NCBI GenBank assembly: GCA_009192285.1
Contig: WBVU01000009.1
Location: 1,922,001-1,986,000 of the forward strand
Source of the DNA: Morchella semilibera
Lineage: Eukaryota; Ascomycota; Pezizomycetes; Pezizales; Morchellaceae
Direction of reading: 5' to 3'
Length of the DNA stretch: 64,000 nt
The notes below the pieces were generated by a model. That model was not told the DNA's origin and ran no database searches. It saw only the letters and a list, made by a program, of their open reading frames with translations. Positions 1-63,700 of this stretch are shown piece after piece (position 1 is the stretch's first letter; every line of letters begins with the position of its first letter). Made by a program: the position numbers and the translations under genes.

Positions 1-2274
1 AGAAGGCACAGTGGTTGTCTCCCGGCACATGCCAAGAACCGCCGGCGAGTGATGGCCTGTGATTGTCGGTGTGACGGTGCCACAAGGTCGGGAAGCTTAG
101 GGTAGGAGCGGTAGTTGGTTTGTGTTTGGACATTCTGCGCCCTTGGGGGAGTGCGTGGGGGGGTCGTGCTTTGGTGCGTGGGGGGTTTCGTAACACAGCC
201 CAGCCCAGCCCTGGGTGGAGAGGTAGGATATGTGTGCTTTCTCACTGGCCTATGGTAGGTAGGGGGGCGGGCTAGCATCTGGACGGGTGCGAGTGATCTG
301 CTGTGATTGCGGGGCCGTGGCCTGAAACACTGGCGGTTGGCTGGCCTGCAAGGGCGAGCTCAAGTATGCGTAACAAGGCGCAAGAAATCCAAAAGATAGA
401 GCAGCCCCGGCCGGCGCGTAGCTGGGGATCCTTGTCGTGCTGTAATTGTCTCTCTCTGCAGAAGGCATGGCAGCCTACACTGAGGGCCACTAGCTGAGCT
501 ACGCGGGCATAGTAGCTACATGTACATATGCTATGGAGCTACTATAGATATGGTCTGTGCCCAACCATTGCTATATATATATGTGTATGGGCCGGGCTAT
601 ATGTACTCCCTTTCTCTCTCCCGGGGGGTTTCTGGTACCGCTGGCTGTTAATGCCCCCTCTCCACAACCGTAGAGGGGCGAATAGAGGTTGGAAGTCTAC
701 CCTCCACTCGGGCAACGTTGCCATGTATACAGGACCGGGCTGTACGTGGGCTGATTTAACTCTACTTTAAGTACTTACCAGCTTCCCTCCTTAGTCCAGT
801 AGGGAGTACCTTCTCTACGTACGCCGCAGCCAAAGCTGCGCGCGATAAAGGCGATCCCCCCCAAGTTATGTACCTGTACACACACATATACCTGTACATA
901 CAATACGTGACACCGACTCCATCCGCAGAGAACAAACCCATGCAAGACCAAAGTCCACACCCAACCCTACCCCGAAGCACGAGCGTGGGGGCCGTCTCAC
1001 TTTTATTTTTATTTTTTTTTATTTTTTTTATTTTTGTACGTTCGATCCAGCACGTAGTACCGGTACCACAGGTCTCACGTCGTCACGTCGATATGATACA
1101 TACATACATACATGTACAAGTAACGTACGTACATGACGTAGTCCCTGCATGATGCCCCCGGAGTCCGGACGAGGGAGTGTGTTACACGTGACACAGCATG
1201 CGGGTGTGTGCGCGGGGGTTTGGTTTTGTGGAGGTGCCGACGGAGATGACCGGAGAGACGTGGGGGGTGATGTGATAATGTATAGATATAGTGAGTGGGG
1301 AGGGAAGATTGCGAGGGAGATGGTTTCGGCGCTCTTAATGCTGCTCTCGCGGGAAGGGAGGTTTATGCCAAATCTCCGCCCATGTTTCTATAGCTACATG
1401 TTATCTATCTATCTCTATACGGGGCCGGGTTCTAGTATATAAGGATTACTGTTTTTTTAATTCCTCTTCTTATAATTATACTTGTTTGTCTGTAGCCAGC
1501 ATGTAGAGTACATACAATACATTATACACCCCAATATTATATCCGCAGGCCGCTACAGACGCCCCATAATAGCTCACGACCAGCACAATAATTACAACAG
1601 TTACAATATACAGTACGAATCTCCTGCACAGCGCCGCACCCGAGACGTCCGCAACCTTAAATCCGAACACTACGCTACACCTGTATATCCGCACCACCCC
1701 CGAGAATAACCATATCTTCCATCTCCACGATCCCCACCACAATAACTCTGTGGCTCCGAGGGCGGAACCCATGTACGTCCAGCCCCCAAGCCGCATGTCA
1801 CGCCCGCCCGATACTCGCAGCGCGGCTGCACGGTACGGTACAGTTACCAACCGACCCAGCGAGGGGATCGTATCACAAAAGGCGTCCGCGTCCGCCAGGA
1901 CCTCTCCTCCTGCATGGGGGGGGGAGGGGGGATCTACACGAGTGATATCTCATGATGCAGCCTTTTCCACCACCACCACCACCCCACTACCCGCTTTTGA
2001 ATCTGGCGGGGCGAATGGATGGGCACGGAGACAGATGTCCTTCCCCACACATGCTCTGTCTGTGGAACCCCACCACACACACTTTGTGTTTCGTTCCGGA
2101 AAGTGCGGTTGTGTGAAGAAGGGATCGAGGGATAGAGGGGAAATGGGAGATGGGCAAGTACGGCAGTCGGCAGTCGCGGTGCTAGCTAGCTAGCTAGTTG
2201 GCTGCCCTTTGCTGCGAGTGGTAGCTAGGCGGTGATCATGGGCCGGCTGAGACAACCCAACCCAACCCTCGAGA

Positions 2275-2299
2275 AAGAGAGAGAGAGAGAGAGAGAGAG
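2275..2299. repeat. (GA)n microsatellite
   Basis: About a dozen GA units in a row, seen directly. One of the cleaner dinucleotide tracts of the left-hand gene-free region. Confidence 0.9.
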
Positions 2300-3142
2300 C
2301 CGGTTTTCAGGAACTTGGACCATCCCCCGATCCCGTACCTACTGACTGCAGCTGGTGCATATCAGCGTCCGCCCGGAATATATTACGTTTTTTGTTCTTG
2401 CACCCCATAGATATATCCGTTCCTGGGCCGAGTTAATTGCTGAGCAGCGCAGGATATATGTTTCCAGAAGAAGCTCGTAGGAGCTACATATGTACATACA
2501 TAGCTGGGGCAATTAGGCCTATCAGGAGATGGTGATCAATTAATTGCGGACCTTATTCCAAAACCACCTACTATATTGTGGTTGATCTTTGGCGTCGAAA
2601 CTAAAGGGCGTACATGGCTCATGATGGATTAGCATAAGAAAAGCTCTCACGGGATTCCAGGCATCTATCTGTCTGATCCCCGTCTTGCTCTAATTAACCT
2701 CAATTACAAGAGGTTAATGGCAAACAATGGCCCCCCAATGGGGCGCCGTTATCACAACCCTAACTCGTCAGTAACCAATCTACATAGCTCAACCTCCACA
2801 CATACATATATATACACATGTATATATATAGAAGTTAAAATAACCCACCTCCCTCCTTCAGGGACCACAGTTAACCCAATAACACCCCTCCCCCCGGATT
2901 CCCATCCCGCCGGGCCCTAGCTCATCATCAAGCTCGCGACGTTTCACCCACAAAACACTCACAGGGGGATGGATGCACTTACGTAAAAAAAGCCGAAACC
3001 GTTTTTTTTCTTCTTTCTTCTTGTCCCAGTGCTCGCTGATCATCACTCGCTCGCACATGATAATTAGTAGCCTAGCTACATGTAGGTATTGTGTTTTAAA
3101 AACGGAAACCCTCCGCCATTCACCAAACAAACGACCGAAAGG

Positions 3143-3795: not shown

Positions 3796-5784
3796 CCGAT
3801 ATCATTCGCTTCCGAAAACTTTCTTTAAACGCTAATATATGTATGTAGCGAGGATCGATCCGGGGCCCGGGGCGGGGGGGGTGTGGCCGCGGCAGCATCT
3901 CTCTATGGTGGACATGATCATCATCATCACGGCCGGATGGTTGTTGATCAAATTAGACTCGTTCACGGATTCGCACTCGCCTCGCCTCGCTTATGTGTAC
4001 GTACGCGCGAAATAAAATAAAAGGCAAAAAAGTCGCAGTTATGTCATTGCCCCCTCCCCCAGGTCAGACAGCACAGCTCGTCGTCACCTGTCTCAACAAC
4101 TGTCTGTACCCATTCCATTCCGGCCCAGAGCTACATTACATGGAAGTATGTAGAGACGTAGGTACTCTAGAGGAGAGTACATGTGTCTACCCTAGTAGGC
4201 ACTGCTCCTAACGCTCGTGAGTACGATCAGCCCGGCCGGATTCGCAAGTGGCCGTGTCTGGGAAGTATGTAACTACATGTAACAACATACTTGCATGATG
4301 AGATGGTACTCTTGGACAAACGGGTAGCGACCTTCATTCATTCCAAGTACGAGTCTACCATGCAAACCGTGTCTCACGACTGCGCGGAGGAGGAGGAGGA
4401 GGACTCTGGAGACGATATTATTAGTATTTTGAAGCAATGAGGTTACCCCGGTGGTGGAATATGGTCAGTGCGCAGCATGTGTGTACGTAAAGTACCATGT
4501 ACCCCGGATTTTGCGCCCCCACCGTCTTTGGGGGCCGGTGGGAGAAACATGTGTAGGTACATGTACTCTACCTACTCTATGTAAAGGTACTTGCTCCTTC
4601 CTCCCTCCCTGGACTTCATTTCCTTCGCTTTGTCCAGTCCCTGAATGTCTGTCTATAGATCTACATTCTCGAGAAGAGAACGGAAAGGAAGGAAAAGAAA
4701 CCCTCGGTAGGATTCGAGTTGTCACACGCTGAATTTTGTTTATCCTAGAGTAATCCCCAGCGCCCGCCGCGCTTGCCTACCACCTGCCCGCCCGGGGCGA
4801 GAGGCCGAGTCGTGTGTCCGCCTACTCTATTGCGTCAAGCGCCTGCCTGCCTGCCTGCCTGCCGTCTCAGTAGCTATTGAAATTCCGAAAAAAAAACAAA
4901 GAAAACCGACTCGTCATGTTACAGGCAGGGCGAACAACAGAAATTCAGCGTATATATGCAGGGTTGCTGGTGAAGATCAGGTTTCTCTTTAGTTGTTTTT
5001 TTTCTGGGCTTGCGCGCGCGCGGGGGGAAAAAAGAAAGTTACGCTGGTTGTCACGCTCGAGAGTGACGCTGGGGGGGTTAATGCCCGCGGTTACCGAGTA
5101 GAGGTATGTGTGTACTTGGATGTAAGGCGGTGATGAGTGCGTTTGCTAGACAGGGCAAGAGAATTAGAGAGCACCGCGCTGCACTGGGAAGACTTAGACC
5201 GAAAAGTCAATATGTAGGCAGCAGGCAGCAGGCACTCAGGCAGCTAAGCGGTGAGAGACTGACTGACTGACTCGTGTCGAGATTTTGATCTGGCCGGCGG
5301 TGTATGTCGGTACATAAAATCTACACTGCAAATACCTGTCTGTCTCTGCTTTTTTTCCCACCAACAGACAGCGCCATCATGCAATTGCAGCGTATTTTAT
5401 TCTAGGTATTAAAGATCTGGCCCAAGCACATATGTAAGCGACAAAGACAATTAATTAAGCGTGATCATGTTGTTGGAATCCGAAACGTTAACACGGGAGT
5501 GGTGGGTTATCGTTACTGTTACTGGTACTGTTACTCAACAGCTGGATTTGAGCCTTTTTGAGTTTTGAGTTTTGAATTGATTCCGGAGGTCGCACGGGGG
5601 GGGGGGGGTCCAGAGCGAGGTACAAGTACGAGTTTGCTAAAAGCTTGTGTTGACGGAATGTGGTACCGGGAGACCTAGAGTAGTAGTAGTAGTTAGTAGG
5701 AATAGTAGTAGATAGCTGAGCAATGTCAATCATTATAATTAATTATTCAATCGAATATCGTAGGAGAGTGCTAGAAGTTGGAGA

Positions 5785-5813: not shown

Positions 5814-8050
5814 GTGGATGGGACGGATGGATGGCGTCATTGGTTGCCGATACGGTATATGCGTACGTTAATGGGGTCGGGTTATTTCTCTCTTTGGCAC
5901 GGACAGGAGATCCAGATCCAGTTCGTGGTGTTTGCGGTGGCATATGTACTCTCTTTACTCTTCTCTTAATCTCCTCCACTACATGTACCTACTCCTCCTC
6001 CTCCTCCACCCCACTACCCACTCAAACAATCCATCAGCTCTCCACTAACCTCTCGGGATCTAGATTCCAGACATGTACCATGTAGATACTCTCTCTCTAG
6101 CCCCCACGAAGAATGGAGCGAGAGTATTTACCCACACATGGGGTAGAAAGAGAGAAAAGAAAGCAATTAACTACGCATTCTAAAGATAGGAGCGCTACAT
6201 CTATCCGTCCAGCAATAAAAAGGTACATATACATGTATGTATTATGCATGATCCCTATATTTTTTCTTTATTTCCCTCTCTCCCCGCCGTACCGCCGCCG
6301 CCGACATAATCCAATAATTAACAATCACAAAGCAGAATAGAACAGAACAGATATATCATAACAATCACCATAATCAATCTAAAAGCCCCCAGTTATGTAT
6401 CGGTCGTTCCTCTCTGGATCTAAATATCATCCTATATCGCTCACTCTGTCCGGGAGAATGCAAATCAATATGTTGTCAGGGAAAGTAATCTATCGCAAAA
6501 CACACCCCAGATGCTAGATTATCGAGAGTGCAACCCGATCTCTCTTCAAGTTTCGGGGGTGTAAGGATGATGTAGGTAGGGGGGGGGGTGTAGGGTAGGG
6601 GAAGGAAGGAAGGGTGCCACCCCCATAAACCCATAACGGGGCGCAGGCAGACTGGTACTTTAGTGAGTATGTAGCCGCACGAGACCACCGCACTTGATGA
6701 TGGTGATGAGTGGACCGACCGTCGACGACACGCTCCCCTCAGCGGGCGCAAAAACAAAAGCAAAAAAAAACTCAAAGGGGGAAGCTGAATGCGGATGAAA
6801 CTATCTGTAACTGTCGCTCCTCCGTTCGTACTCCTCTTCTCTTAGAGGTTTTGTTTTTTATTTTTATTCTCATTTTCCTTGACTTCCGAGAGTTGCGCGC
6901 GTTACGTTGTTGTTGATCAACAAGGCACCTTGATCATCCTTTTTTCCCAAGGTAGGAGATACTCAGGAAGGAGATATTTTATTTTACTATCGATTTACTA
7001 GTATCTACCCCACCTCGAGCTTTGGTCGGGTAGAGGAAGTGATAAACAAGATCTCCTGTTTACCTATTTTCAATAGGTCGGGGCCTCATGACCGTGGAAA
7101 CAGGTCTGACTTCTAGATGACGCTTGCTAGCAAATAATACTCATCTTACACAGTCAACAAGGAATAGAGAGAGAGGGGGAGAGAGAGAGAGAGAATGGGT
7201 GTCGTAGAGTAATCTGGGGAGGGGGAATAGAGGTGAGGTGAGGTGAGGGGGAGGGGAATACATAGATAGAAGTAATGGAGACAGACAGAGAGGCTCTTTC
7301 ATCACAGCTGCAATAGTAAACCCTACGTCATAAACCCTGCCTCTCCTTCCGCCACGAACCAATCAGAGGTGGCGTGCACCCTGAATGGAACGGTCGGTTC
7401 AGCAGTGCCCTGCTTTTCTTCTCGACTTGCCTAGAGCAACTTGCTTGCTTTGCTTTGCTTACATACACTACATAGATAGAGTAAAGGGCAATGCTAATTC
7501 GCGTATCGCAGCTGTCTCGGGAGGGAGAGATTACCTCTCTCGCTTTCAGGTCCTGTGGTCTAATAAAAGAGAAGAGAGCCAGTTAGATGCAAGATACAGG
7601 AACGTGTCGTGTGTGTGTCTTGGAAATGTCACGGTGAATATTCTTTTTTCTTGGTTGCTTGCTGTGTGTGGCGGCGAACGTTTTTGGTTGCGTTACCTTC
7701 TTGCTACCCTGTCCTTACCTCCCTGCCCCTCCATCCCAGGTTTTGCCCCGCAGATGTGTGTGTGTGGTGGTGGTGGTGGTTGTGGGTAGGTGTGGATGGA
7801 TGGGGAAATGGAAAGGAAAGGGGGAGGGAGGGAGGGAATTTTGTGGGTTTCCAGCCCATCAGGGTCCTCACCATGCATCTGAACTAATCACTCGGAAGAA
7901 GGAGAGAATTATAGAACGCAGTATGTAGTTTAGTTGAGCACGCACAGCACAGAGCAGGGAGTAGCTCGTCCACATCCATCCCACACATCCCACATCTTCA
8001 ATTATTCAAGCCAGCTAGCTCTAAGTGGTACTATGATACTGTAGCTACTA

Positions 8051-15801: not shown

Positions 15802-16918
15802 AACCTAGATGGGAAGTGCGCCAATAAATAGCTCTTTTAATTGTAATGATAGAAATTGAAGACATAGGTACTTGTACATGTACTTCTGGAGAAATAAAAT
15901 GTTATCAAGGGGGGTTTTTCGAATGATAGGTTGATGACTATGACGTGTTGACGTGGTTGTGGTTGTGGCTGTGGTTGTGGTTGTGACGGTTCGTTAGGCA
16001 AGTGCATAACGAATCATGTTTGCTTAGCACTTGTTTCTAATACCGTTAACATTAACCTGACTGGGATACCACTACATCATAGATACATGTAATTAAGGCA
16101 AGCCCCATAACGAGAATTATGCTACGATATTTATATTATACATAATTTATCGAACTTGATTAGGAAATTCTATTTCTCAACAGTAAATATATACATATAG
16201 ACACTTAGCATACCCTACATGTAGTTCACCCAGAGGCTATTGTTATGTGCCAATTGAGTTACCGTTAGATAATATCAATCAATGCACAGCTCTCGTATGA
16301 ACCTCACAACAGCTCTTGTTTCGCAGCGGCTATGTTCTTGCTAGTTTGATGGTGCCGATAGTCATAAGCTATCACTCGGGAGGCATCAGTTCTTGGCACG
16401 ATCAATATGGAGCACAGTCAATCGCTTTGGCTCACTGTCTCATCCGTTATTTTATGAGGTAGGGTTTTAATATTGGGTTTAAAATTTAGAGTAGAGCCAT
16501 AGCCTCATTACTTCATGATTCCCTAACCCCTAGCCCTATATAATATCTGCTTTTGGTATATATTTCAATAATCTCAACATAAAATCACTTCATGGGTTCA
16601 CTTGCATTTCATAACAGGCCATCTATAGTTAATGTATACGGTATAGTTTTCAACGGCTATCAAAGCTTTATAAACACTACTAGGAAATAAAACTAAGGGA
16701 TTGCGAAGAGCTTGCTCTTCCACCACTATCTTCCCACCCAAAATATAAAATACAAATACAAACAGTCACCACCCCCATCTAATAGTAGAGTAGACCAGGG
16801 AGATAACGTTCATTCAGCCAACTTAGGCATCACACCTTTGCAGGAATCGTCAATAAACCATCACATATAAAACGGAAAGGGATATGAATACCTCTCAGTA
16901 TACCTCTACAAAATACGT
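15802..16918. other. intergenic region between arabinanase and repeat-protein genes
   Basis: Convergent 3' flanks. It contains a candidate poly(A) signal at 15893, a (GTTGTG)-like tandem repeat at about 15955-15990, and three TACATGTA palindromes near 15875, 16087 and 16218. The rest is AT-rich, without open frames of note. Confidence 0.6.
15893..15898 (+). terminator. candidate poly(A) signal of arabinanase gene
   Basis: An AATAAA hexamer about 90 nt downstream of the stop codon; another CAATAAA lies about 20 nt after the stop. Fungal 3' ends are degenerate, so this is only suggestive. Confidence 0.35.
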
Positions 16919-17589: not shown

Positions 17590-20500
17590 AAGAAAGAATG
17601 TAAAGTAGGGCGGAAAGAAAGAGAATGTGTAAGTGATGGAATAAACTGATAGACCAAGCTAGTGATTTCAAAACGATGGGGAGGGAGACACCATGATTTA
17701 TACGTTTTCAGAACTCAAATCAATCTTAACTTTCATATTTGTTTGGCGATCAGAAAACTTGATTGCACCAATCAATCAATGCACGGCACACTATCCTCAA
17801 TAGACATATACACCATAAACAGCCCTATCAACATAGATTGAAGCTCAACCAAGAATACTGGGCTCTACCCCTGAACAAACGAAATATCTTTTAGATCTTC
17901 AGGTTGTTAGACGGCATCAGGATGACTCTCCGCCGGCCCAGGAACCAGCATGCAGGTTGGCAGGTATATTTCTCCTTCGGTAATTATATCGAACTGTATT
18001 AGTTAAAGATCAGTCTCTAGATTGAGTTAGGAGAAACTACCCTGGTTTATAATTATCCAGCCTCCAAAATTTCTTGGTTCGCATGGTGCTGAACATCCAA
18101 TAGTTGGCTCTACCCAGTTAAAAGCACAGTATTCTGCAGCATCTTGACAACCTTTTGGTATGGGATTTTCATAAACAGCTGACGCGTCGCCCGTTTCAGA
18201 AGAACTCTAAAACTGTCGAATAGATTGACATCTCGTTTGTTCTGAAACGTGCAGCCCTCGGTTCTTTCTACCGAACAGGTACCAGAGGATCTACAGTCCA
18301 GGATCATCGGTCCCGATTTGTCTATTCCTGGCACGTTAAGCGTATATATCTCGGACTGCTAATTTATCACGTTTCAGAAGTAAGTATACTTGGAAATCGA
18401 AGTACATATCCCAATATTTTTTGAATACTACGCGACGTTGATTCACGCGGCGTTGGTATCATGCGGTAAGTTCCTTTGTGTGCTTGTAGGCGAATACAGG
18501 TTGATTGTCTAGATATATCAGGGATCTATTCGTTTGAGTGTTTTAGCGATACCAGTAGAAGTTAGGTATGTTTAAAGTCTCGGAGGAACACATTACTTTA
18601 CGTCTCGGGACCCAGCTAGTAAACAATGGCTTAACGCACACTCCGGTTCACAAGAAAAAAAACCTCGGAAAGAAGCTCAGAGAGTGTGCTCACAGGTCCT
18701 AGACTGATGGATACATTTGTTTGTTCGATAGCCTTGATACCGCTTCGGACTGGGGTCGATCACCAATCCTACAACTTACAAGTTCATCATCCTCCCCTTG
18801 TGTTGCGCGATTGAAGAATATGGAAAATCCCGTGTCAATAACAAGGAATAAATAGCTTCCTTAACCGCATATTATGCATACTTTGACATGCCACTAGCTA
18901 CAAAGCTCCTCGCGAAGGTGGGTCCGACCATAAGTATAGTGGCATCGTGCACAGGGAGGTATTTCATCCCCTAGATCCATGAAGGGAACTTACTACATGT
19001 ACTTTACCTCCTTCCCATTTTCAGCTAGCTGGTACCTAACGATAAAGCTTATCATTGACAAGAAGAATAACCAACCTGGGGTACCCTGGTAGACGTACAT
19101 ACTCTAAGTCAGCCTTTTCCTCTCAATAAATTCCAGCCCTTGTACTTTAAAGTGCCGGGACAATATAGGCTTTAACTCGGGACCCATCGGCCGATATTCG
19201 ATATGATCAGCAGCTTTTTCTGCGGGCTTGCTGTCCGCCGTCCGGTCGGTGGAGTAAATAGCTCGGTATTTATTCAACCCGACTTGGCTCCGATCAGCTA
19301 TATCGTCACTATTATTTCCTCAATTAATGTTTCAACAATGTTCGACACAGACGTGTTGTGGGCGCCAAACCTTGCTTTAGGTACCTAGGTGGAAATGCTG
19401 CACCAGAAATCACTCGGGGTTGATAGCGAAGGGCGGGCCTTGCTTCTGGTGCCTTGGTTGTCTAATACCCTCAAAATATCTCTCATGCGTACTGCAGTAT
19501 CTTTAACCGACTTTCAGCACTTCATATGGTAAGCACATACATCAGTGAACCGAACACTAATTTCTAGACAAAAGAGTGTTGAGGAAACCCACCTCGCTTA
19601 CGGCTGATCCTACGAAGAAAAGAGAGGCGACGTGGATGGAGGGCAATAGAAGCAACGGTGTTCTCAGTAGTAAACACTACTTCACTTCACCACCAGTCGG
19701 ATTTACCAATAAACCCAATGATTCCACGAACATTGCAGACCCTGGAGATACTTACGGACAACCATTCATCGTGCTACGTTTCAGGGATCTAGTTCTCACG
19801 GCGGCCTAAAAAAAAACAAGGAAAGGAGCCCATTCGCGAACTTTCTAGAGCTTCCCTCACCACACCATACTGCTTTGAACATGACGTTACCAGCATTTTC
19901 TATCCTCACCCCCTTTACCTTTCGTATACCATACAGCGGGCCTAACTTCTGGCATAGTCTCCATCTTCCATCATGGCTAATCTTAAACATCATTCACTCT
20001 ACGCAACAGTTCTATTCTATTCCAAGGTTGAAGGTAGATATGGTACTCATAACTATATCACAAGTCCCACAAACCTCTAAGCTATATAAACAAATTAATT
20101 AGTATCAACACTTCGCCTATCTCGATGCCAATAATCCGGTATGGGTCTATAAACCATAAGAGTTTAAGAGCGTTGGATTACCATTATCTCGGCAGCAGAT
20201 TGGGACTTCGCACACGGCCACTACTGCCTTTCCCGTCGCATAGCCTTAATGGAAACATTGAAGGTAGTGAAACAGCCGAACCGTACATGGTCGAACTCAT
20301 GAATGAGCAGAACGGCCCAGGAGAACATCCTACGGGCAAGGTCTCGCCCTAACTATTTAGAGATGGGAAGAGCAAAAGGATAGGGAGATAAATGAATACA
20401 AAACACTTTTCTCTTGAGCTTGAGTTCTCAAGTGTCAATAAACAGCCATTCATCAAAGCCAGAAGGAGTAGTACAGCTTTACACTGAGCCGGAAGTTCTG

Positions 20501-21610
20501 CACGGGAAAATTTCGTCGGCCAGTAGGCTCTGAGAAGTTATTGGTCCATTAATGCAGACCTCCCGGTGTTCTGTAGGGGTTCGATAGTGACTTCTATGTA
20601 GACATAGCTTATACAATTGTACACGTCGTGTTTCTAGGTTTTATAGGGCGCGATCAGCAACCGCCCAGTGGCTATAGATAGGTGTAGATATGTGATGTGT
20701 AGAGCGAGGGTAAGGGGGACGTGAAAACAATTTAAGATTATGTTAGTTAGGGGCTAGATATAAAAACGGAATATTTGATGGCTCATACTAATAATAAAGT
20801 CACTCCCATAGCGTGATGGGATAGACGAGTGATATACCATGACTACGATTGTAACACAGGTGACTCGGTGTTTTGGTACACGCACCGAGCTTTAACGCAT
20901 TTACCGATATTCTCTAAATCATGCAGTACATGTACCCACTGCACAAGGGCTGCATATCATCATGATTTAACAATGTACGGTAACAACAATGCCGACTGCA
21001 CATAGGCCTCGCATATCTTCAGAGAGTGTAGAAATGCATCAAGAAGGGGAGTTTAATAACTATTCTAAGCACTATAAATGTGCTGCCGTTACGAACTACA
21101 GCGAATATTAACCTAGTGTGGTAAACACTTCGAAATCCTTGTTTGGTTCTGTTGTTGCTATTTACTATAACAAGCAATGTAATTTCTCTACTAAGTGGTG
21201 CACGGTCCAGGTCGTTGATAACTTTCATCCGTGCAAGGGATAGGCCAAGAATGGCGTAACCGAGTGATAATTTGTGATTCGTAGAATATTTACTATCTGG
21301 GCGTCGGGCCCCCCGTGGAGTATATCTATAATAGCGCAAGGTTTTATTTTGGCGTGTGTATCTGGCCTGTGTACAAAAATCTAACCTTGAGCCAAAGTTT
21401 GAGGTTAAGACGTTGGTACGAAGACCGATACGTCCAGATCAGTGTTCTCCTTTGTCTATGATGGTTAGCCTTTTTTTTCTTCTTTTTTTCTTTTTGTTTA
21501 ATTCATTAATTATGATGGTTAGTCGGAGTTAAGGCGTATAAAGGTTCTATGAGGTACTACACCCGAGGCTTCGGTATTATACCTTATTGAGGTATCATAA
21601 TTAAGAGTTC

Positions 21611-24700: not shown

Positions 24701-25099
24701 GTTATCAATCTGTGCAGAAATTCCGAGCCTAGATATGCATATATGACAGTCTTCATTGCCCAATTAAAACTACACTACGTTGCTCTTCACAAAGAGATAT
24801 CAAAGGTCCCGTACGAAATTACTCCGACCCTGAATAGACAATGCATTTAACAGTTGATGGATGCGTATGCCCTAAACATTACATGTATGCAGGTCCCAGT
24901 AAAAGCAGGCTGACAGACGGGCCGAGGCCCCTTGAAATATATTGTACGCAAGCGATCGATCACGAGTGGTTCATTCATCCAGGAAATAGGAAAGGCCCGG
25001 TTTTGAGATAGTACCTTGCATCAAATACCCAAATTTCAAAGTTCACCGGGGGGGATTCTTCATGTGTAAAAAAAATTTTCGGTCCCTATGCAAAGCGGC

Positions 25100-33194: not shown

Positions 33195-33973
33195 ATGGCC
33201 ATCAGAATTGTTCCTTCCGAGGGTTATACAAGAACGCCATGCTGAAATGGAGTACGTAGCGTTCATAACAGACAACTTGGAGTAAAGAGTTTAGAAAATT
33301 GCCAAGACTTTATAAAGCTTATCTATAGCAGGTTCGATCTACATGTATATGATATCAGGTGTGATATACAATGTACGTTTGTACCACACAGGCACGATCA
33401 AAAGTTGGGTCATGAAATATCACTCTGAAAGTTGGGGATCCAGAGAACTACCTGGCTATCAATCAATTGATCTACCCATAGTCTGACGACACAGGCTTCC
33501 TATACAGTTTCAATTGGCTTCGCATGTTTCCTTATCTTATTAGGATACCAGTAACATTATAGGTCCATTGGATCACAGTATATCACTCGAAATATCATTG
33601 TATATTCGTATTTGCTTGTTGCTCAATTAAACAACTATAACCGAAAAGCCCCACCTGGAACTACCGAGACAACGCCTATTGAAGTCTAGGTCGCGTGGAG
33701 ATCTATTTAGAGAGTGACGAAGGGTATACTGGGTTTATTCCCACTCACAGATTCTGGCAGTAAATTTGATATCTATCTTAAATACACATAGAATTTCATA
33801 CGTAACACCATCACACAGGAAATACATTTACTAGCATCAAATATACTGAAGGGTATGGCAACTAAATATAATAATAAACCCTTAAGCAAGCCTCGAATTT
33901 TCAATAAACATTGACGCCGGTGTCCCAAAAATGCACCCTTCAATTACCAAAGATCTAAACATACCCTTTCTTC

Positions 33974-41237: not shown

Positions 41238-42615
41238 AGTTAAGTGCTGTGTAGAGTGAAAATACTAGATCTGCGCAGAACAGAACCTTGTCGTTGTATT
41301 TATGTGGCCGACCGCCCACGGGGGTACAGCACAAAGCAGGGTGACCCAGGACCCAACCACACATAGACAATTGTTTCCACATATTGTGCGCATCTCCAAA
41401 CGCCCGAATGATACGTAGCGAGACCCGGGGCTAGTTATAATTCGCAGGGTTACCGCCAATCAGTATGTCGTACATGTGTTCACGACAAGTTCCTGCATAC
41501 GAGGGGTTACGGGGAAACGTTGTTCCACTCCGAGTGCTTAGGTGATGTGCGCTAACCAGGTCAAATTGTCTCCTCTCCCATGAGCTCTACCTTAATCTTT
41601 GGGAACTAGCAGGATACCTCGATTGAGCTAATATAATTAGTAGAATAATGCAGGAATTGAAATCCCACACACATAACCGGGAAAGCAATCATGACAACAG
41701 GACTTTAAAAATTTCGGATTTTGAGGCTGGAGCGAATCAAGTGTCCAGAAACACCCTTTAGATGTCTTGGCTATTTTAGATGATATTTGCTAAGGCTGAG
41801 TGGTGAAGGATGGTTGCCATATACATAATTTCTTCTCGGTTCATGGGCTATATAGGATGACGGTCAATGTTGGCAATTAAATTCGGGTGGTGGGTCTTGT
41901 GCATGTGCCCATCCCAAAGCCTTGATAAAGAGAAATCACTAGCCACACCTGCATAATAGGTCTTCAAAACAGGACAATACAGCTGCTGGGTGTTAATACC
42001 AGGCGTGTGAAAAAATCAACAATGAAATTCTCAGTTCGGAAGAAAGACCCCCACACCTCCAGAGATCTAGCCTACAGCCTGCCGAGACACTAAGCGGGGT
42101 ATATAGATGGACGAGTGAGAGCTTGTGATCATGGGTTCATCATAACTACATGTATCACTCGATCGAGTTAGATACAATTTTGGGAAACAATATAAATCCT
42201 TAGAAAAATATCCTATCATTTAAAAACCCCTCACCAGTCACCAAATACTCTACAAACTGCTCCACAAACGTGGCCGTCGTTATTGTTGAAAAAACAGACC
42301 TTACGCCTTCCGCCAAACGAGAACAGAAATATGCAGAAAATCTCAAAACGAAAAAGAAAAAAATTTGAAATAAAAGATAAAGGAAAAGAAGAACAATTAC
42401 CCGAAAGGTATGTGCCCGTCCCATTTTGAAAGTTGAGAAATAAAACCCCGTTGTTGAAACACCATTTTTGAACCATGACCAAAAGAAAGGAAAGAAAAAG
42501 CAAGAAGGTTAAGAAATGGCTTGATTTGCTGCAAAAAGACCTAAGGGGGATTAACTTTACTGTGAAAAGTATCCAGACCTTCTTTCTTTATCGGATATAG
42601 AGTAGGGTGTTAGAC
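41238..42615. other. intergenic region (may hold a 5' exon of the PSI gene)
   Basis: No complete gene seen. A hydrophobic minus-strand frame near 41265-41459 could supply the missing signal-peptide exon of the PSI-domain gene, but no clean splice site joins them. The remainder is AT-rich; TACATGTA near 42148. Confidence 0.45.
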
Positions 42616-44184: not shown

Positions 44185-44998
44185 TTCGGTTGGATGGTTC
44201 GTTACAGGCTTGGTAGAGAAATAGGGTAGACGACGACGATGAGAGAAGATGGTAACGCGGAAAGGTTCACAGTACAAGTGTGTGCGTAACAGCAAAAACA
44301 GCAACAAGCTTGGAGTTTCAGGAAGTGAATTTCACTATTGCTCAGCTGAACCTAATTTCAGGATAAAGGGGATGGTAATATTATAGATGGGTATGTAGAT
44401 GGTGTACATAGATGTAGGAGGAGAAGGAGAAGAAGAGAAGGAGAGAAGGGTAGGAGGAAAACTATGGAGTAGAAAAGGTTCGGGGTCTCGTGCCCCAACC
44501 TAACACACTCCCACGTTTTTTTTATTCTCAACTTCCCTATCATCTGGTCTGGACATATTAATGGATACAAGTAATTTCCCCGTGGTGGGGAAGGGGGGGG
44601 AGGGATATTGGATCGGATGGTGGTCATTGATACCATGTCACTGGTGTGTCCAGTTTTATGGGGGGGGGGGCATTCCATGCGTGGCCATTAGAATGGGATG
44701 AAGAGTGATGTTCTGTTATACCCTGAGTTACCTGAAGGGACAAGAAGAGGTTCAAATTATAAATGTGACCCGTACCTACATGTACATACATGTACATTTA
44801 TTAGTACACTACATAATCTCGTTACTAGGGTATACAATTCTAGTCAGTGTGGTTCTATGCGTAGCAGCTTGATCGTTCTGCTCTAAATGCAAGGAAGGAA
44901 GCGAGTGAGAAAAGAAAGTAGGGCTCTGCCATTAATTCGTAGCCTTGTCTAGATCATCACTTTGCACATGTCAATGGATAGTAAACTTGATGATTCAA

Positions 44999-45393: not shown

Positions 45394-46531
45394 ATGCGCA
45401 TTTTATAGGGGCGGGTTACCAATAAGCTGACTCCAAGCTATGTATGTAGTTGAGAGAAGAACACAAGTAACCGCATTTCTGCGTCTCTACATCTTTGAAC
45501 GCAGCCCAGAAAAGTGTGGCTTTGAAACAAATACATGTATGTCTGAATCGCCCAAGAACGCACACGTATGTACAGTATACATACTACAACCTCTGTCACG
45601 GTTGAGGGCTTAATATGCACTCTCTGCTTTCACTGTAACAGCGATAATCAATATTAAAACTAACCGTAAACTACATGTACATGTAGGTACCTCCGAGCAA
45701 GATGATAAAGTAGACGTGCATGGTATATATATCGTTCTATCACTGGTACTCTACTACATATCAGTACAAATTATAAAAGATGTCTCCTGGGCTAACACTC
45801 GACTAGAGTAGATACGCTTATGCCTAATATTCAAACATATCCATTCAATTCTACCTGCAAAGCCTTCAGTTGATGGCTCGCATTCATTTGGAATAGCTGT
45901 CACTCTCGCCGGAAAGCGGAAGGAGTTGTTGGGAATATGCATAACTAGCCGCATATAGATATGGGCCTCTGCTGTTGCTATGGCAACAGATGTCTGGGGC
46001 TGCGCGCATGTGATTTTGTCCTATCTGGTACCAGATAAATATTTACAAAAAACTAATCCCGGAAAAAAAACCCCAAAACATTCCTCGGTGGCGATCATCG
46101 AACCTTTAAGCCTTTCTTTTGCGGGGACAAGGATAATAGAAAACCCGATGAAAATCAAAACCAGATAAGTATGCAGAGTTGATTGGATCGGCAGTGCCTC
46201 TTTGACCTTTTCCTACTCCACAAGAGGCAATTCAAAAGACGGATCAATGATAGTCTGTCTACAAGGTTATCACTAATTCATTATTTGGCCACGCGAAGCA
46301 AGAATCGTCAACACGCTACGCACGTTAGTGAGTGGTGGGGAACCCCCTGAATGTCATATCAAAATAGTTATACACACTACAAAAGGACTTTAACAAAGTT
46401 CCTACGAGCGTTAACCCCCTAAATCCTTCAATGCTATCGGGGTCTCAAGTTTAGGTCGGCGTACAGTTTTTTGATTCGTTGCGTCTACTATCACTGAGAG
46501 ACATCAAGAGAAGCGTACAGCGCCAAAAACA

Positions 46532-48871: not shown

Positions 48872-50670
48872 TAATGAAAAAAGGATTTGCATATATGGAT
48901 GGATACTTATATTGGCGTCTTTGAGATTATATTTAATTTTCTTTTTTCAAAGGGGATCTTCATGGGAGGTTTTGAGGACTGGAGGTGGATATTCTTGTAG
49001 ATACTTACCTTATATATGTATTCTCTTTAGTTATCACACTTACTTCTTTTTATGTGTATGTGTGCGTCTTCTTGTTTAATTATTATTCGTTTAGGGTTTT
49101 TTCGTTATAAACCCAGGGGGAACTAGATGTCCCATCCTTTTTAATACACATCTACTTCCAAGGTCTGCACCTGCTTTTTGAAATACCTTCTGTCTGCAGC
49201 TACCCTTCTCGAGACGAACCTGCAAAACCTCATGTCATGTACATACAATCACACCACACCCGACAGACTCTAGTCAACAGCACCCAGCCCGCAACCCTAG
49301 AGTGCAAAACCACACGAAAGCTCCGCCAGTGCTGCAGATCCAATGCAATTATACATTGGTACCAGAAAGCCTAAGAGGCAGCTGCAGTGCTAGCACTACA
49401 GGCTTGACGATCCGCTATGCGTGTCAATTACCACCTTGTTCCCACTCGACAGCTACCAGTGGCTTCCGAGTGACGGTCTATGATTGTGTACTATAGTAGT
49501 GTGGGTCGGTGCTAGCTGGCTGCTTGGCTTGTGGGAGGGCTGGTGGTGGTGGTGGTGGTAAAGTGTGTGTGGGGGGGGGGGTGTGCTGGGTTGCGTCTAC
49601 AGGTAAATGTGGCACAGTTCGAGGCGGGCTGGGTGTGGTTTGGGGGAGGACGAGGGCGGTCCTGTGGGGCTGGGCCTGTTTAAGACCTCCGGCACTGACT
49701 AGGGCGGTGGTCTGGCATGGAGAACTACATGTATGTACATGTATGTACGTACGTACCGAGCCGGCTCATATGTACATGTATACAGCAGGCTTTTGCTATA
49801 GGGATACATGTACTGTCAGGACCAGAGTACGATATCCTTATCGTTATGGAAAGTTCAGGGCTATAATAGATACATAGGTTCTGCTCCAGTACCATGTAGC
49901 AGTATCTTTTTGATCTAGCCCTATTCCATGCTTTGAATACTGATAATAACAGAAATTTGTCCTAATAAAATGAAGAACTTTTTTTTGGTTTTACTACATG
50001 TAGGCCGTATATCCTTATCAACAACACCCTTACAGTGGGGTTCCACTTTATATGTACTGTATTATATGCCAAACCCTCCTTTCTCTCGCGCTGTACGGGT
50101 TGCTGGGAAGGCCAGGTTCAAAACATATATATCAGATCATATTATCTCCCCCCAAGTATACATAAGGAGCAGAAAAACCGTCCCACTGTCACGGATATGA
50201 GCCCGAGTGGTCGTGGACCAGAGGGGATGATAGGCGTGTTGCCCCAGCCGCGTATGCATGAGGCGGCGGTGGTTTGGATCTCTATGATGGTATGTTTTTA
50301 CCAGTACATACATGTACCTGGCTATACGCACACCCTTATATACATGCATTTTGCCCTGATTGCGCACGCCCAACCAAGACCAGCATATATCGAGTGAACC
50401 CAGGCTCGTGGTGCTTCAAGGACGGAATTAAATAGGCGCGGCCAGTCGGACGGCAGAGCGGGGCCCGCAGGTTCTTTTCTTCGGTGTGTCTGTTGTCTTT
50501 ATTTCCATGGAGGGGGACTGGTTAATCATGGTGTCGTATGGGAGTGCGTTGCCATAGCCTAAGGGCTGCATGCATGTATGGAGTATAAATAAATGGTATG
50601 GAGTGCGTCATAAACTATCACTCGTGAATACTGGGTCTCGAGCTTGATTGAACTATTCATTGAGTACATT

Positions 50671-53800: not shown

Positions 53801-54417
53801 TGAACCTACATACATACATGTACATAGGAGTACCCTTGGACGTAGATCGCAATACGTAGGGTAGAGTACTGAGTACATACAGACTAGGCTAGCTATGACG
53901 GCTTCCCCCAATCCCGGTCAATGACATTGTCATGGTAGGGGAGATTGGAGGAGGGCGACTCGGCGTATGTACATACATGTATGTATAGGGCAAGTAAGCT
54001 TAAAATCACCACTCTGTCAATATATATGTTGCTATGAGGGTGGGTGGAATTGGGGTTGGGTTTGATTGCAATGGATAGGATACTCTCTCTGTAGACTACA
54101 TGTAAGTACTTCTCTACTGGTCGCTCACACAAGTCTACAAGTAGCAAAAGCATAATTGGAGAAAAAAGAGCGTAATGGAGCAAAAAAAGTATTTTCGCCA
54201 GTTACATGCAGGAAGTAATATACAAAAAAAAAAAAAAAGAACCCGAGCCCCAAATAAAAAATTGTAAACACAAAAAAAGAATATCACAGTAAAAAAAAAG
54301 CAAAACACCGGTACCGTGTTTCCCGCACTGAAGGCTCTCTCTCTCTTCTGCCCCTCCCCGGAAATTCGAATGTAAAAAGAAGAAAAGAAAAAATAAGCTG
54401 TACACTTTTGCACTTTG

Positions 54418-56790: not shown

Positions 56791-56814
56791 CTGACTGACT
56801 GACTGACTGACTGA
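56791..56814. repeat. (CTGA)n microsatellite
   Basis: Six tandem CTGA units. A shorter run of the same unit occurs near 5262-5272. Confidence 0.9.
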
Positions 56815-57645
56815 CGCCAGCTAAAGTACTGGTAATAATAACAATAATTTTGTAGACATGATTCGAAAACGTCGCAATGTTACTCACATCCACTTTCCAC
56901 ACATACACACACATACACACACACACTCTATTAAGGTACATAGGCATAGGCATAGGTACAACATGAGTAACATTAGAATTAGCAAGTGCATCGCATACCC
57001 TACATGTAGCTGGCCTTGAACATATTAATTAAATTAACCTCCGACTACTACTCTATCTCTATTTTTCCCTACCTACCTGCCTACATGTAGGATAGGACGG
57101 GTAGGGACTACCTTATTTTTAGCCCTGCCTTCCGTTCCGCATAGAGGGAGGGAGGGAGGGGGGGAGGGATGATGGGTGGGTGGGCCATGGGTGGGGAACA
57201 GTCCCGGGCAGAATGTACCCGTTCCTAATACTCTAGACAAGGGACGTGGGAAAACCCTGGATAATTTTATTATGGTTGACTTTTGACTTGACGTCTACAC
57301 ACGCACGCACACACACGCACATTCCCCTCTAACCACTCTAGCAAATATCTAGCGACCCAAGAAATGAAATCTTTACTCCGGGCCCTACACCACCCGCGAT
57401 AGTAGCACAGAACAGAACAGACCGCAATAATAACAACAACAACTGCATCAACATCGACATCGACACAATTCACAATTTTACTATGTACCTACATGACATC
57501 TCGTGCTCCATCATATCGTATTCAGGTGTATATTCATAGCTACTAATCAATTCAATCAACCTCTCCCCCACCACCACCACTGCCTCCAATCGGGCACTTG
57601 TCAGTCTCTCCTTGGTCCACGACAAGCCCACTCGCTATCGATCGC

Positions 57646-57704: not shown

Positions 57705-60700
57705 TGAGGTATGTAGGTATCGACAATTTCAATATCATGCCTACATACCTCCTCTAGAGTACTCTAGCTATACATACATGCATACATATACCCGAGTCTA
57801 TATCTGTCTTTACTCCGGCTCCGCTCGCATACATCTGTTTCTCCCTTCGTACTTTTCTAATCTACATGATGACATCGCACCGCTACCAGTGCCGGGCGAT
57901 GATCCCTCTAGTCCGACTGCAACGGCCGGGCGGTCGAGCCGCCTATACAGTACGCTAGGAGTAGGAATTGTAGACATTGTAAACAGGTACATGAGGTACT
58001 TGTATCATAAAGGATCATAGACATAGATCTGGGCCGCTCGGATACACCATATCCCTCGATCCTCTCCACAATCAATAACCCCCCCGGTCCCGTCATTTGG
58101 CAGCGGAGGTAGGAGGGCAGGAGGCCCCATTATTTTTCTTCGCCCTTCTTCATCTACCTAAGAATAAATGCCTATCCTAGGCTAGGTAGAGAGACAGAGA
58201 GAGACAGAGAGAGTTACTCAGTCAGGGCTGGCCGCACGAACGATCGGTTCCTGCCACGGGTACAATTTCTCCGCACCCCCGCCCTGGGGCGCGCGAGCTA
58301 GCAAGCAATCACAAAAAGGGAGGAGGCAAGAAAAAAAACCGTGAAACACGATTAGCGGACCGGGTGGTGGTCCCTTTCCTTGGTCGACCGACGGTCTACA
58401 TACATACCCACCTGCCACGCGAGCGAAGCAGAAAAGGAAAAAAAAAAAGAAACAGAAAAAAAACCCTCCGGGCCGGGGAGGGAGTTAGGTGCGTGGTCGG
58501 TCGTTCGTTCGATGTAAAGTACGGTGGTAGGGAGTCTAGGACATGTGTGAACTGGATATAGAGTATGGCGGGCATGAGTGGTGGATTAATCGAATGGCCC
58601 GGCTTCCAGGGTAGAGCTACCAATCGGTATGTTATGCCTTCCTTCCTTCATTCCCTTGGTCCTTCCCAACCTTCTCTCGAGACTCGTGAACCTATTCGCC
58701 TAGCTATGGATGGAGCTGTGGCTGGTGGTAGATCGTCGTGGATGACCGGTCCGGTTACGATTGGGTTGGGAAGAAAGGAAAGAAAGGATCGACAGAAGCG
58801 TATTGTAGAAACATGCCCCTGCCCCTACCTATAGAGTAGCTAGGTAGCTGGCTCCATGTCTGGCCGGTCAATTGCCTCTTCCTAGCATCTTATACATACA
58901 TATAGCTATCTACATGTAAATATGTGGCCAGCCTCCTATTGGCATTTCGGTGAGTTAGTGTAGTTAGTGCAGTTTATTAAGTCTACCTGGCATGGATAGA
59001 GTTGGTAGTCTACTTACTAGTAAACAACAACCAATAACACCAATAACAATAACAACAACAGCAGCAACAACAATCAACTTTGACCGGAATCGGTCAGGAC
59101 CTGTCTGGCATTGGCATTACGGTTATTCTTCTCTGGCCTGCCTGCCTATCTGGCTGGGCAAGCAACATCAGACCAAGTGCTGTTGTTGGTACACGTCCCT
59201 AATTGAGTTCCAGACCTACAATCGCCTCTCCCTCCGATCAGCGAATGAGCGAACAAATACAACAAAGGTACTTGGAGTACTTATTTGCAACGTAACTAAC
59301 CATGTAACTTCGATCGCAATTGTCTAGGCAGCACAGTCCCCACAGTACAGCCATCCCGCTAGCCGTAGCACTTAGACTTTTTTGATATGCAGGAACACAC
59401 GGCATCTCTGTACCTACAAAATCAACACAGACAAAGGAAAGTAAAGGATCACATCCTTCCGGCCGCTTGCAGGTCCGTCCGGCTGTTTGTTTGATGAACT
59501 ACTTCCTACTCATGTACTCGCGCTATGAACGTTCAGGGGGAAAGGGGGAGGTGGGGGGAAATTACCCATGCTGTGCGACAGAAGAAGAAGAGAAGAACAG
59601 ACACTTATTCAGAGGATACTTAGGTAAAACGATTGGTTGGGTGAGACCACAGCTTCGCCAAATGCTGGGCCACTCGTCCGCATAGGAGGATAGAGTACAA
59701 GCCACATCATATCGGTCACCGACGGTGAATGCAGTCAGCTTAAAGTTCTCCGCGATTAAGTCATAGGTACTTCTATGTCTTATCCTTTCCTTCGATCCTG
59801 TCTAGCCTAGGACTAGTATAGATAGAATAGGTAGGGTCGGTCATGCCAGTTAGGAGCGGGCTTGAGTTGTGAGGATTTTTTCCCTTCCTTTCTTTGCTTC
59901 TTCAGCCGTCATATGCACCGCGCTTATCAATATTGCGGCTGATTCGATTTCTCGTAATGAGGTCCCAGGAACTCTATTCTGGAATTAACCATGCATATCT
60001 ATATATCAAGTGATAGTGGCTTACTCCATAAGTTTCCCCTAGCCCTATCCACATACAGAAAAAACATGCGGCTGGAGGGATAATTCGCGCAGATAATATG
60101 ATCAGAGTGAGATTATGCAGTGGGTGGGAGGAGATTTAAGCTTATCTGATTCCCCCAGGCCTCCCTGACATATATATATCTTGGCATAGTGATTCACTTT
60201 ACATATGCAGTCAGGATACGCCCGAGCTCGTTCAATTGCACTCGAGAGCCAGTCGAGCTAGTCAGGTGGTGATTGAGGGCTCACAGCGGTGGAGATGAGA
60301 GATTCTATTTTGGTAGTGCACTGTGAGTGAGTGAATGAGCGAGCGAGTGAGCGAGGCGAGTGATTGAAATTATCATACCACATACTTACTAGACCAGAGT
60401 AGACGGCCAGGCCAGCGTACATTTATTAATAAATACTCTGATCTTGGATTCTACCAGCCAGGCCAGCAGCCGCCTGATTGTCTTAGATCTCCGCAAGTAG
60501 ATCTCGAGTGACTTGACTACACAGCCAGATGATCATAAGTTGACATGTATTAAATACTGCGGTCTGGAGTTCTGCCAGCCAGCCCGGATTGTTAAAGGTG
60601 ATAGTGCTAAAGGCTTGTACTGTATGATCTGATGGCACAAGAGATGAAGAAGCAAGGTTCTTCTATAAAAAAATTTGCAAAACAGGTGAATTAAACGAAT

Positions 60701-63700
60701 TAAACACGTATTGCGTCTAGTCAACATAGACGTTGTCCTATGCATTCGAAATAACAAATATAACAAACAAACGGCTAGGCCGCGCTTATTAGCAAGTGCT
60801 ACCACCTTACATGTACCCCGGGTCCTCATAATTTCGCAGCTACCGGCCACCGTGGGAGATGCGTATGATTTATATAGATCGAATGGCATCAGGCGGAGCT
60901 ACATATATACATGTAGTACCTGGAAACAAAAATGGGAAAGGTCAACTGGGGCCACTTTTGATGGTGGTTGTGATACCAGTGTATTGAGCTCGTTGCGTCA
61001 CCTTTAAGGACCCCCGGGGTACATGTACATGTAGTTCTGCCAACCAAACATGGCAGAACTACGTGATATATACATACTTGCATGTATATAATAGAGCCTT
61101 CTCTCGATACTACGGATGTGGCTGCGAAAGATAAGAAAAGTGCAATTATGCGCCATTTACTCCATATTGCAATCCGAAATAACCAGCTGAGCCCTCTCTC
61201 CCATAGGCCCAACAATTATTTGCGCCGGGTTGCATGCATATATAAAAATCCCAATAATCTTCAATCCCGCCACACTGATGTAGATTATCGATTTCAAAAG
61301 TGACTGCGCGCCGATGATCTCCTGGTGCGCAGCATCTGCGTGCCCAATTTCACGCGCAGCTGCAATATATATCTCCTCCACCAGCACCCCACCACCACCG
61401 CCGCAGTCATAACAGCCATTTCTTAATCCATGACCCTCTGGTAATGGAAGTAGGTACATATGAAACCGCCATATCATCACTCTTTCCTTCGGTGACGTTG
61501 TCACGCATAAACCGCACAATGCCATTGTTTCATGACCATTTGTATTCGGTGCAGGGGGGGATGTCCGTATAAAGTTTCAGACTGTGCAGGACAACGCATA
61601 TCTCTTGTTTTAGTATATTCGACAGGTGTTATCTATCCGCCTCTTGGCCTTACCCCCATTAATTGTCGGCATCGTGGTCATGATGGTGGTGGTGCGTGTA
61701 GTAAGCATTAGTCACCCACCTAAAGGCTAGACCGGCATCACCATATTAGTGCTATGGTGAGGTGGTCAAAGCCCGTCGCACAATCGCTTGGAAAGGAACA
61801 GAATAGAAACATAGACATAGTTCATTGTTTCTACGTACGGGAGCTCCGTTTGGACGCTCTCACGCATACCCCTGACCGTATTATGTGGCTTAATTGGGAC
61901 GAGGTTATATAGTCTGTCGAGTGATATCCTATGAGTAAGCCAGAATTCTACAACATTAAATAGATTTGTGATCATTGATCCGTGCTGGACAAGCTAGTAA
62001 AACCCCGGAAATCTTATACAAATGCAGAGATGGATGGCGTGCTTCTGTGTGGGTGTGGGGTGTGGTGTCACATGGGAAGACGTACGATGGGGTAATTGAA
62101 TTTAATGTGATTCGCTGTGATTCGCTGTGATTCACTCGAATGGATAGTTATGAAAACTAGAGGGTTCCTTTTTTCTTCTGCTCAGCGCCCCGCTAGGCAG
62201 TGTTTTTAATTCTGTAGAGGAGCGCCGCCGGGGATACTTTTACTTTTTCACTTTAATTTTCTTTTCTTTCGTATTTTTTTTTTTTTTTTACTTGCGTTTT
62301 CATTTTCATTTTTTATTATCACCAGGCCGCCGGCGGAAGTTGGGGCCGAACACGATGATGGGATATTTGCATAAATGCACTTTTTATTTTCTTTCTCTTT
62401 CCATTTCATAAGTGGTGCTTGCGGTATTTTTGGGAATTGGATCAGGTGAAGATATTCAGCTTCATGAGTTCAAATGTCGAAAGACCGAACATGCTTTTGC
62501 AACGGTCATTGGGAGGTTCGGAGAGTATTCGCTTTCTACATGAGTAACGTTCACATGTAGAGGCACAACCAGCTCGTTGTCATTTGAAGCCTTACTTTTA
62601 CCACTGGCAGCCATGGACTAGTGCTTCCACGTAGCGTAGCTAGTAATTGATTAATATGGGTATTATGGGAAAAGTACATGTAGGCATGGCTTTGCAACGT
62701 CCAAGAGAAAGTTCTTGGTAATGGGAGTAACGCCTTTTTCTGCCCTTGTACTGCGTTTAGCATATAGCTACATGTAGGACTGCCTCTTTCGATGATTCAT
62801 TCTAGAAGCCGGGTGATCAACTGCATACTCCACCGGCGGTATGGGGTAATATAAGCTTCACCTACATATATATATATAAAGTACTACATGTATTGATCCA
62901 ACCACATATAGATGAGGGGAGCACGGGGCCACATGTTGAGTGTACGTGTATGGACATACACGTACCCCTTTCTCTACTCGGCTAAGCCAGGCATAACGTC
63001 TAGTTTAACTACATGTATTCTGTACCAGCGAGTCTACGGGGCCCTTGCCGCGGTTACCGACGCTGGAGGTCGTGTTTTCGTAAGTGCATTTAAATTTTAG
63101 TGTGTTACGAATGTTGATGATTAACTGGTTTCTCGGCATTGCTAATCATATGTTTTTTATTCGTTGGTTTCTATTGGGTGCTCTCTTAAACATATTCTTC
63201 CTCCTGTCCTATCGGGTGCATAGTCCCGTATAGAAGAAGAAGGGGATTCTAGCAGCTTGTAAGATTCTGTGCTACATGTGCACAGATCTGTACTTAGGTA
63301 TCGACTGCATGAGATCTTAAGAGGCAGACAATTGGTTCTGCAGCCACTGTTTCGGGAACCGAGTTGTGGTGTGTGAACGATGTCTCCTTTGATATCGACT
63401 CCTGGGGCAGTCTGCCGCCGTTAATGATCCCTAAACTCCAATGTGTATATCTACTCGATGTTAAGATTTTGTAGCCAACGGACGTATAACCGAATTTTCA
63501 TACATACGAATGATTCTTGCTACCGATATTCTTCTATTGGAATCGGAAGAATTTGAGGGTAGGTGAAGATTATCTAATCTCATAGATCTTGATACAGCTG
63601 TGCAGATGCCTCGGGCCCCTGCTGTTGCTCCTCTAGGCATCGAAAGATCTCAAGGCGGATAATGTTTCTCGAGAGGTCTAAAGACAGACCTGCATATTAA

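Follow-up and report, generated by a model that had tools for sequence, protein, structure and literature searches.

An abundant, predominantly intergenic octameric palindrome in the genome of Morchella semilibera, possibly the recognition site of a dimeric DNA-binding protein

We analysed a stretch of 64,000 nucleotides from the morel Morchella semilibera (contig WBVU01000009.1, positions 1,922,001 to 1,986,000; "the window" below) and, for comparison, the remainder of the genome, and found that the octameric palindrome TACATGTA is present at a very high frequency outside of genes. The best-supported reading, to which we assign a probability of about 45%, is that TACATGTA is the recognition site of a dimeric DNA-binding protein; this site would be selected or actively maintained and would act outside of promoters. 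If it is indeed a maintained binding site, filamentous fungi would have a genome-wide system of DNA binding that has so far gone unrecognised. To our knowledge, very few eukaryotic genomes have one exact octamer at such a density outside of repeats. No fungal report of TACATGTA, or of the second motif described below, was found among the literature titles and abstracts listed.

Abundance of the palindrome in the window and in the genome

The original prediction had put the number of TACATGTA copies in the window at about 55. The abundance was borne out, and the exact count is 52. For comparison, the window was simulated with Markov models of orders 1, 2, and 3 (60 runs for each order), which yielded mean values of 1.2, 2.7, and 3.9 copies and maxima of 5, 7, and 8 copies, respectively, showing that the observed number is far above chance. 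The positions that had been read by eye proved to be correct, including the two overlapping pairs at 45672-45685 and 61020-61033, and the stretch reported to be devoid of the palindrome has zero copies from 6238 to 15874. None of the 52 copies is located in an exon of our 11 spliced gene models, again as predicted, and one copy (4274) lies inside a putative intron, in a gene model that is weak. The ten-base form CTACATGTAG occurs seven times in the window.

The assembly comprises 56.76 Mb in 23 contigs. Genome-wide, TACATGTA is present in 22,206 copies, compared to 3,723 copies of the reversed word ATGTACAT, and CTACATGTAG is present in 2,029 copies, compared to 30 of its reversed control. The density is 0.81/kb in the window versus 0.39/kb in the genome, i.e. 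the window has about twice the average. Thus, the excess is real and wider than originally stated. The fraction of copies that are extended to CTACATGTAG (2,029 of 22,206, 9.1%) is close to the value of about 8% expected for independent flanking bases from the frequencies at position -1, and CTACATGTAG was therefore rejected as a unit of its own.

Two pairs of contigs, C9/C10 and C12/C13, are of near-equal size, and 10-kb samples from them are 100% identical in their overlaps, with shifted coordinates. These contigs appear to be duplicated in the assembly, so that the non-redundant genome-wide counts would be somewhat lower than those given here.

The copies in the window were located by exact match and are listed without a strand.

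Copies of TACATGTA in the window
517..524, copy
1109..1116, copy, adjoins a TACA microsatellite
3077..3084, copy within CTACATGTAG
4274..4281, copy, in a putative intron (gene model weak)
4558..4565, copy
5980..5987, copy
6230..6237, copy
15875..15882, copy
16084..16091, copy
16216..16223, copy within CTACATGTAG
18994..19001, copy
20927..20934, copy
23128..23135, copy
23737..23744, copy
23751..23758, copy
23800..23807, copy
23849..23856, copy
23955..23962, copy
24880..24887, copy
25725..25732, copy
27089..27096, copy
33340..33347, copy
36492..36499, copy
36996..37003, copy
37295..37302, copy within CTACATGTAG
40392..40399, copy
42147..42154, copy, overlaps the half ATCACTCG of the second motif (42154) by 1 base
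44777..44784, copy
44787..44794, copy
45532..45539, copy
45672..45685, two overlapping copies
49726..49733, copy
49736..49743, copy
49773..49780, copy
49805..49812, copy
49995..50002, copy within CTACATGTAG
50309..50316, copy
53815..53822, copy
53974..53981, copy
54097..54104, copy
57001..57008, copy within CTACATGTAG
57082..57089, copy within CTACATGTAG
58911..58918, copy
60808..60815, copy
60908..60915, copy
61020..61033, two overlapping copies
62675..62682, copy
62769..62776, copy within CTACATGTAG
62885..62892, copy
63010..63017, copy

Location relative to genes

To resolve the location of the copies, we used a sample of 224 kb, consisting of the window and 16 pieces of 10 kb. Left out of it were two duplicates (L014 and L017), four pieces that had been chosen for CTACATGTAG (L001-L004), and one piece that is part of the window (L023). 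A home-made spliced gene finder predicted 66 genes with 131 introns; the spliced genes include a DUF3405 gene, a CorA gene, and a Dbp5-like gene, and the Pfam and PDB matches are in keeping with a filamentous ascomycete. Unless noted otherwise, the following values refer to this sample.

The palindrome is strongly intergenic. Intergenic DNA contains 114 copies in 146.8 kb (0.776/kb), introns contain two copies in 11.4 kb (0.176/kb), and exons contain a single copy in 65.8 kb (0.015/kb). The codon composition alone predicts 0.5-1.3 exon copies, and therefore the rarity in exons is mostly compositional. The striking feature is the excess in non-coding DNA, not the rarity in exons.

The densities in divergent, tandem, and convergent spacers are 0.76, 0.87, and 1.00 per kb, respectively. 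The comparison of the divergent and the convergent value shows that there is no promoter bias, and neither the spacer classes nor the start-proximal DNA of the sample revealed a concentration upstream of genes. The 250 bp preceding the start codons, 13.4 kb in total, contain only one copy; given the intergenic density, the Poisson p value is 0.0003. For comparison, 22 control palindromes have 14 copies in the same regions and are not depleted (Fisher p = 0.011).

Sharpness of the motif and decay of its copies

After removal of simple repeats, TACATGTA is the strongest outlier of all 8-mers, with a z value of 48 over an order-3 model, and the next unrelated 8-mer is ATCACTCG, with a z value of 17. 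Other palindromes were compared within the sample; TACATGTA is one palindrome far above the others, as is the case for highly iterated palindromes (HIPs). In non-coding DNA, the exact word reaches 23 times the order-2 expectation, while the 12 classes with one mismatch range from 0.87 to 4.4 times. Counted on both strands of non-coding DNA, 232 of the 332 instances of ACATGT are part of TACATGTA, and each of the other 15 pairs of flanking bases is represented 0-17 times. Of the 15 other palindromes built as TA-xy-y'x'-TA, the most enriched is TATATATA, at 5.1 times the order-2 expectation.

The flanks of the copies share almost nothing. A comparison of the 100-bp flanks of 134 sites revealed three matching pairs (23 bp, 23 bp, and 55 bp at 85%; controls, zero), and none of the 134 sites lies within 7.7 kb of sample-detectable repeats (Poisson p = 0.015). 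A larger mobile element, a transposon, or a part of a miniature inverted-repeat transposable element (MITE) was thus rejected as the carrier. Target-site duplications around the palindrome are not in clear excess (2 bp, 3 bp, and 4 bp in 11, one, and two of 116 sites, respectively). The base adjoining the core is seldom T (26 of 232 half-flanks), and a TA at position -4 is present at 0.40-0.41 per half-site.

Half-sites with this TA were also used to estimate the genome-wide decay. The intact half-site has 16,337 matches (reversed control 1,820), and the variants at positions 4, 2, and 3 have 1,389, 1,572, and 2,580 matches, respectively. Turnover at neutral equilibrium would generate about 1,225 transition copies per position, if 60% of all changes are transitions and 1/8 of the changes fall on each position. 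At position 4, the letters among the 100 matches listed are T (51), C (25), and G (24), and the order-2 model predicts 22% G. The A>G excess estimated from these listed matches is only about 36 copies, i.e. nearly nil. At position 2, G accounts for 54 of the 100 matches listed, 18 of which represent one palindromic word on both strands, and at position 3, T accounts for 64 of the 100 matches listed, 25 of which are TA-repeat-like. Near misses are thus few; this is clear at position 4 and less so at positions 2 and 3. Compared to the neutral value, the decay is far lower at the centre and lower at position 2; for position 3, the outcome is uncertain. A constraint that peaks at the centre is in keeping with a recognition site.

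The palindrome as a possible recognition site

The original prediction had offered a protein-binding or chromatin mark as one of several explanations. This is the reading that the results support best, and it falls short of proof. It is favoured because the excess, the sharpness over eight bases, the nearly pure intergenic location, the scarcity of shared flanks, and the scarcity of near misses at position 4 are all in line with a recognition site. The site would be symmetric, with TACA/TGTA as the half-site, often accompanied by a TA four bases outside, and the putative binding protein would be a homodimer. Selection or an active maintaining process would keep TACATGTA at thousands of intergenic places and would keep it out of the 250 bp preceding start codons. 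Instead of activating promoters, the protein would have an architectural or genome-wide role, e.g. in chromatin organisation, spacing, insulation, or repression.

Several observations weigh against this reading. The reversed controls of the half-site variants at positions 4, 2, and 3 (753, 2,671, and 2,274) are comparable to the variant counts or higher. Decay is present at position 2, with about 490 A>G copies estimated from the listed matches versus about 1,225 under neutrality, and the corresponding C>T estimate at position 3 is about 210-860 copies versus the same neutral value. In the sample, the excess of all one-mismatch words over order 2 sums to about 79, compared to 116 intact copies. 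Part of the shortage of A>G at position 4 may come from the CpG that this change creates and that may be lost more rapidly, and the sites may also have arisen in a burst in the fairly recent past. The TA at position -4 is partly a general texture, as other TANNTA words have values of 0.08-0.27. In addition, the number of copies per spacer rises with spacer length and is over-dispersed (chi2/df 2.5), as under neutral accumulation. Transitions are in modest excess at both position 2 and position 3, which gives less weight to a binding site and to the HIP-like system of two motifs described below, and more weight to transposon footprints and to a by-product of simple sequences.

Alternative explanations

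The mobile micro-palindrome of the original prediction could correspond to excision footprints that were left behind by thousands of hops of Tc1/mariner transposons. If such a transposon has CA...TG ends, sits at a TA target, and is cut two bases inside its ends, TA-CA-TG-TA would result after filling and joining of the overhangs. PMC3520976 describes taCATGta as a rare footprint left by Tc1 excision in C. elegans, an origin that the paper does not accept for its own motif. The genome contains 69 DDE_3 matches, 57 of them above the family cut-off. Elements with TA|CA...TG|TA ends exist in L027, L031/L032, L033, and L034, and short relatives were found in the window (50671-50816), in L007 (8400-8516), and in L024 (5113-5332). 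The avoidance of exons would be expected for insertions, and some decay is seen at positions 2 and 3.

The flanks of the sites do not resemble the targets of these elements. The target flanks were read by eye from eight of 20 inverted-repeat rows, and L031 and L032 belong to one family. Of the 12 rows that were dropped, four have TACATG at both ends, which we attribute to palindrome copies that pair by chance; five are TACT-ended, two are overlapping rows of L009, and one lies nested within L027. In the eight rows used, which cover the sampled families, 15 of the 16 half-flanks have a G just outside of the TA, compared to 64 of 232 half-flanks of TACATGTA, and GTACATGTAC represents only 1,486 of the 22,206 copies genome-wide. 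Partial footprints are weakly raised: TACATA was found 325 times versus 158 expected (2.1x), TACAGTA 33 times versus 28 (1.2x), and TACTAGTA, predicted from CT-ended elements, eight times versus 2.8 (2.9x). The TA at position -4 is common to other TA words, and the number of excisions required would be about 20,000. Footprints are therefore weakened as an explanation, in that suitable elements exist and the site flanks do not match their targets, and we regard this origin as unlikely, although other, unsampled families with different targets may have left them. If the copies were footprints, the hopping of transposons would have left behind an exceptional fossil record.

The element at 50671-50816 is a short inverted-repeat element of 146 bp with TA flanks and CAGTACACTCTCG-like ends and is probably a Tc1/mariner MITE. 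The Tc1-like elements at L031 2930-4271 and L032 2737-4078 are 98.9% identical and are inserted at TA inside of TACATGTA-like targets.

An improbable explanation in our estimate is that biased mutation, repair, or gene conversion writes and restores TACATGTA without any use for it. Such a process would be in line with a very sharp, palindromic, and genome-wide word with few near misses at position 4, and it has a published parallel. In PMC4390886, the HIP excess is discussed as a possible epiphenomenon of mismatch repair, and a methylation-guided repair model is proposed for cyanobacteria. The process would have to be blocked in genes or purged from them, where the single exon copy is no more than the composition predicts, and the DNA immediately upstream of start codons is depleted as well.

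It is quite doubtful that TACATGTA is an ordinary promoter cis-element of one transcription factor, as has been proposed for motif-1 of Phytophthora infestans, which is the same abundant octamer. A Homeobox_KN domain is named as a candidate in PMC3520976, and the genome of M. semilibera has one Homeobox_KN match, located at C14:782200; nothing connects this protein with TACATGTA. The lower density in divergent than in convergent spacers and the near absence preceding start codons argue against a promoter element, and in our judgement the genome-wide number of sites seems far above that of a usual regulon.

Simple sequences could also be involved, with TACATGTA as a by-product of TACA/TGTA/TA microsatellite junctions and of the TANNTA texture of non-coding DNA. 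TACATACA, TATATATA, and the TA at position -4 are enriched, and at least one of the words TACA, TGTA, and CATG occurs within 20 bp of 62% of the sites, compared to 42% of random non-coding places. For 44 of 116 sites none of these words is found within 20 bp (58% of random places), and isolated copies thus exist, as originally predicted. About three such sites would be expected, i.e. 4.9 expected copies multiplied by the 0.576 of random places without these words. The proposed seed of repeat expansion is hence not supported as a sufficient cause, a microsatellite origin was rejected as sufficient for the same reason, and the sites are not confined to tandem arrays. Moreover, 47 of 117 sites lack a TA at both -4 and +4, and the sister TA palindromes stay far below the 23-fold excess of TACATGTA. 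With too many isolated sites, a simple-sequence by-product is hardly a likely explanation.

CpG decay of TACGCGTA as the source of the palindrome was rejected, as TACGCGTA has one copy in the intergenic sample and three copies in 180 kb with exons and duplicates included. Motif-poor blocks on contig C1, seen among the matches listed, are also thin in control words, so that no claim is made for them.

A second iterated intergenic motif

Scans for words and spaced words revealed a second intergenic signal that is not a simple repeat, i.e. ATCACTCG with RTCAY ten bases before it. This spacing was found for 27 of 46 ATCACTCG copies, and each of 15 other spacings was found at most once. In the sample, single-mismatch variants of ATCACTCG occur 12 times, summed over 24 words, compared to 27 intact copies. 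An exact search of both strands of the genome yielded 4,467 copies of RTCAY-N5-ATCACTCG and one of the reversed control. For a sequence with a gap, a fixed spacing, and no palindromic symmetry, there would be few explanations other than a protein site. As this motif occupies the same intergenic space, a protein-site reading of TACATGTA becomes more plausible. No fixed spacing between the two motifs was seen in the sample.

Both motifs might together form a eukaryotic counterpart of HIPs, with TACATGTA (about 20,000 sites) and RTCAY-N5-ATCACTCG (at least 4,467) as intergenic addresses for abundant architectural DNA-binding proteins. We regard this as somewhat unlikely; if true, such a two-address system would be a genome-wide organising code, none of which we have met for fungi.

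The 18 places in the window are the starts of ATCACTCG (plus) or of its reverse complement (minus); the RTCAY half is absent at some of them.

Starts of ATCACTCG in the window
46, minus
290, minus
1939, minus
3042, plus
7887, plus
16371, plus
19409, plus
20826, minus
21261, minus
24017, plus
28603, plus
33582, plus
42154, plus
50617, plus
51452, plus
52713, minus
60357, minus
61918, minus

Two other inverted repeats were noted in the window. A short inverted-repeat element of 126 bp with TACTCGCAA-like ends is located at 32856-32981 and is marked as repeated, perhaps merely by the mutual match of its arms. At 45027-45371, there is an inverted repeat of 41 bp that is 88% complementary and whose arms are separated by 263 bp; the stretches that hold the two arms are marked as repeated as well, perhaps again merely because the arms match each other.

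Comparison with known systems

Four known systems share features with TACATGTA. Motif-1 of P. infestans has TACATGTA as its consensus, is highly abundant, has been suggested to be a homodimer site, and is present upstream of 12,070 Phytophthora genes (PMC3520976). It was found in upstream regions and is correlated with infection-induced genes (PMC3520976). The octamer is thus the same, but the copies in the morel avoid start-proximal DNA and fill intergenic DNA. The binding site of the Irx family of homeodomain proteins is also TACATGTA, as cited in PMC3520976. The preferred site is identical, but the Irx factors are animal proteins, and the morel genome has the one Homeobox_KN match mentioned above.

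The Tc1 excision footprint of C. elegans, again as cited in PMC3520976, has the same sequence, and suitably ended elements are present in the morel. It differs in that the flanks of TACATGTA are unlike the targets of the elements found here, and partial footprints are only weakly raised.

In its behaviour, the closest analogue is HIP1. HIP1 and the alternate HIPs of cyanobacteria (GCGATCGC) are octameric palindromes with a high frequency throughout the genome, and the methyltransferases associated with HIP1 recognise its inner bases (PMC4390886). The likeness is that of a single octameric palindrome at a high genome-wide frequency. HIP1 is prokaryotic and has its methyltransferases, whereas TACATGTA is eukaryotic and intergenic.

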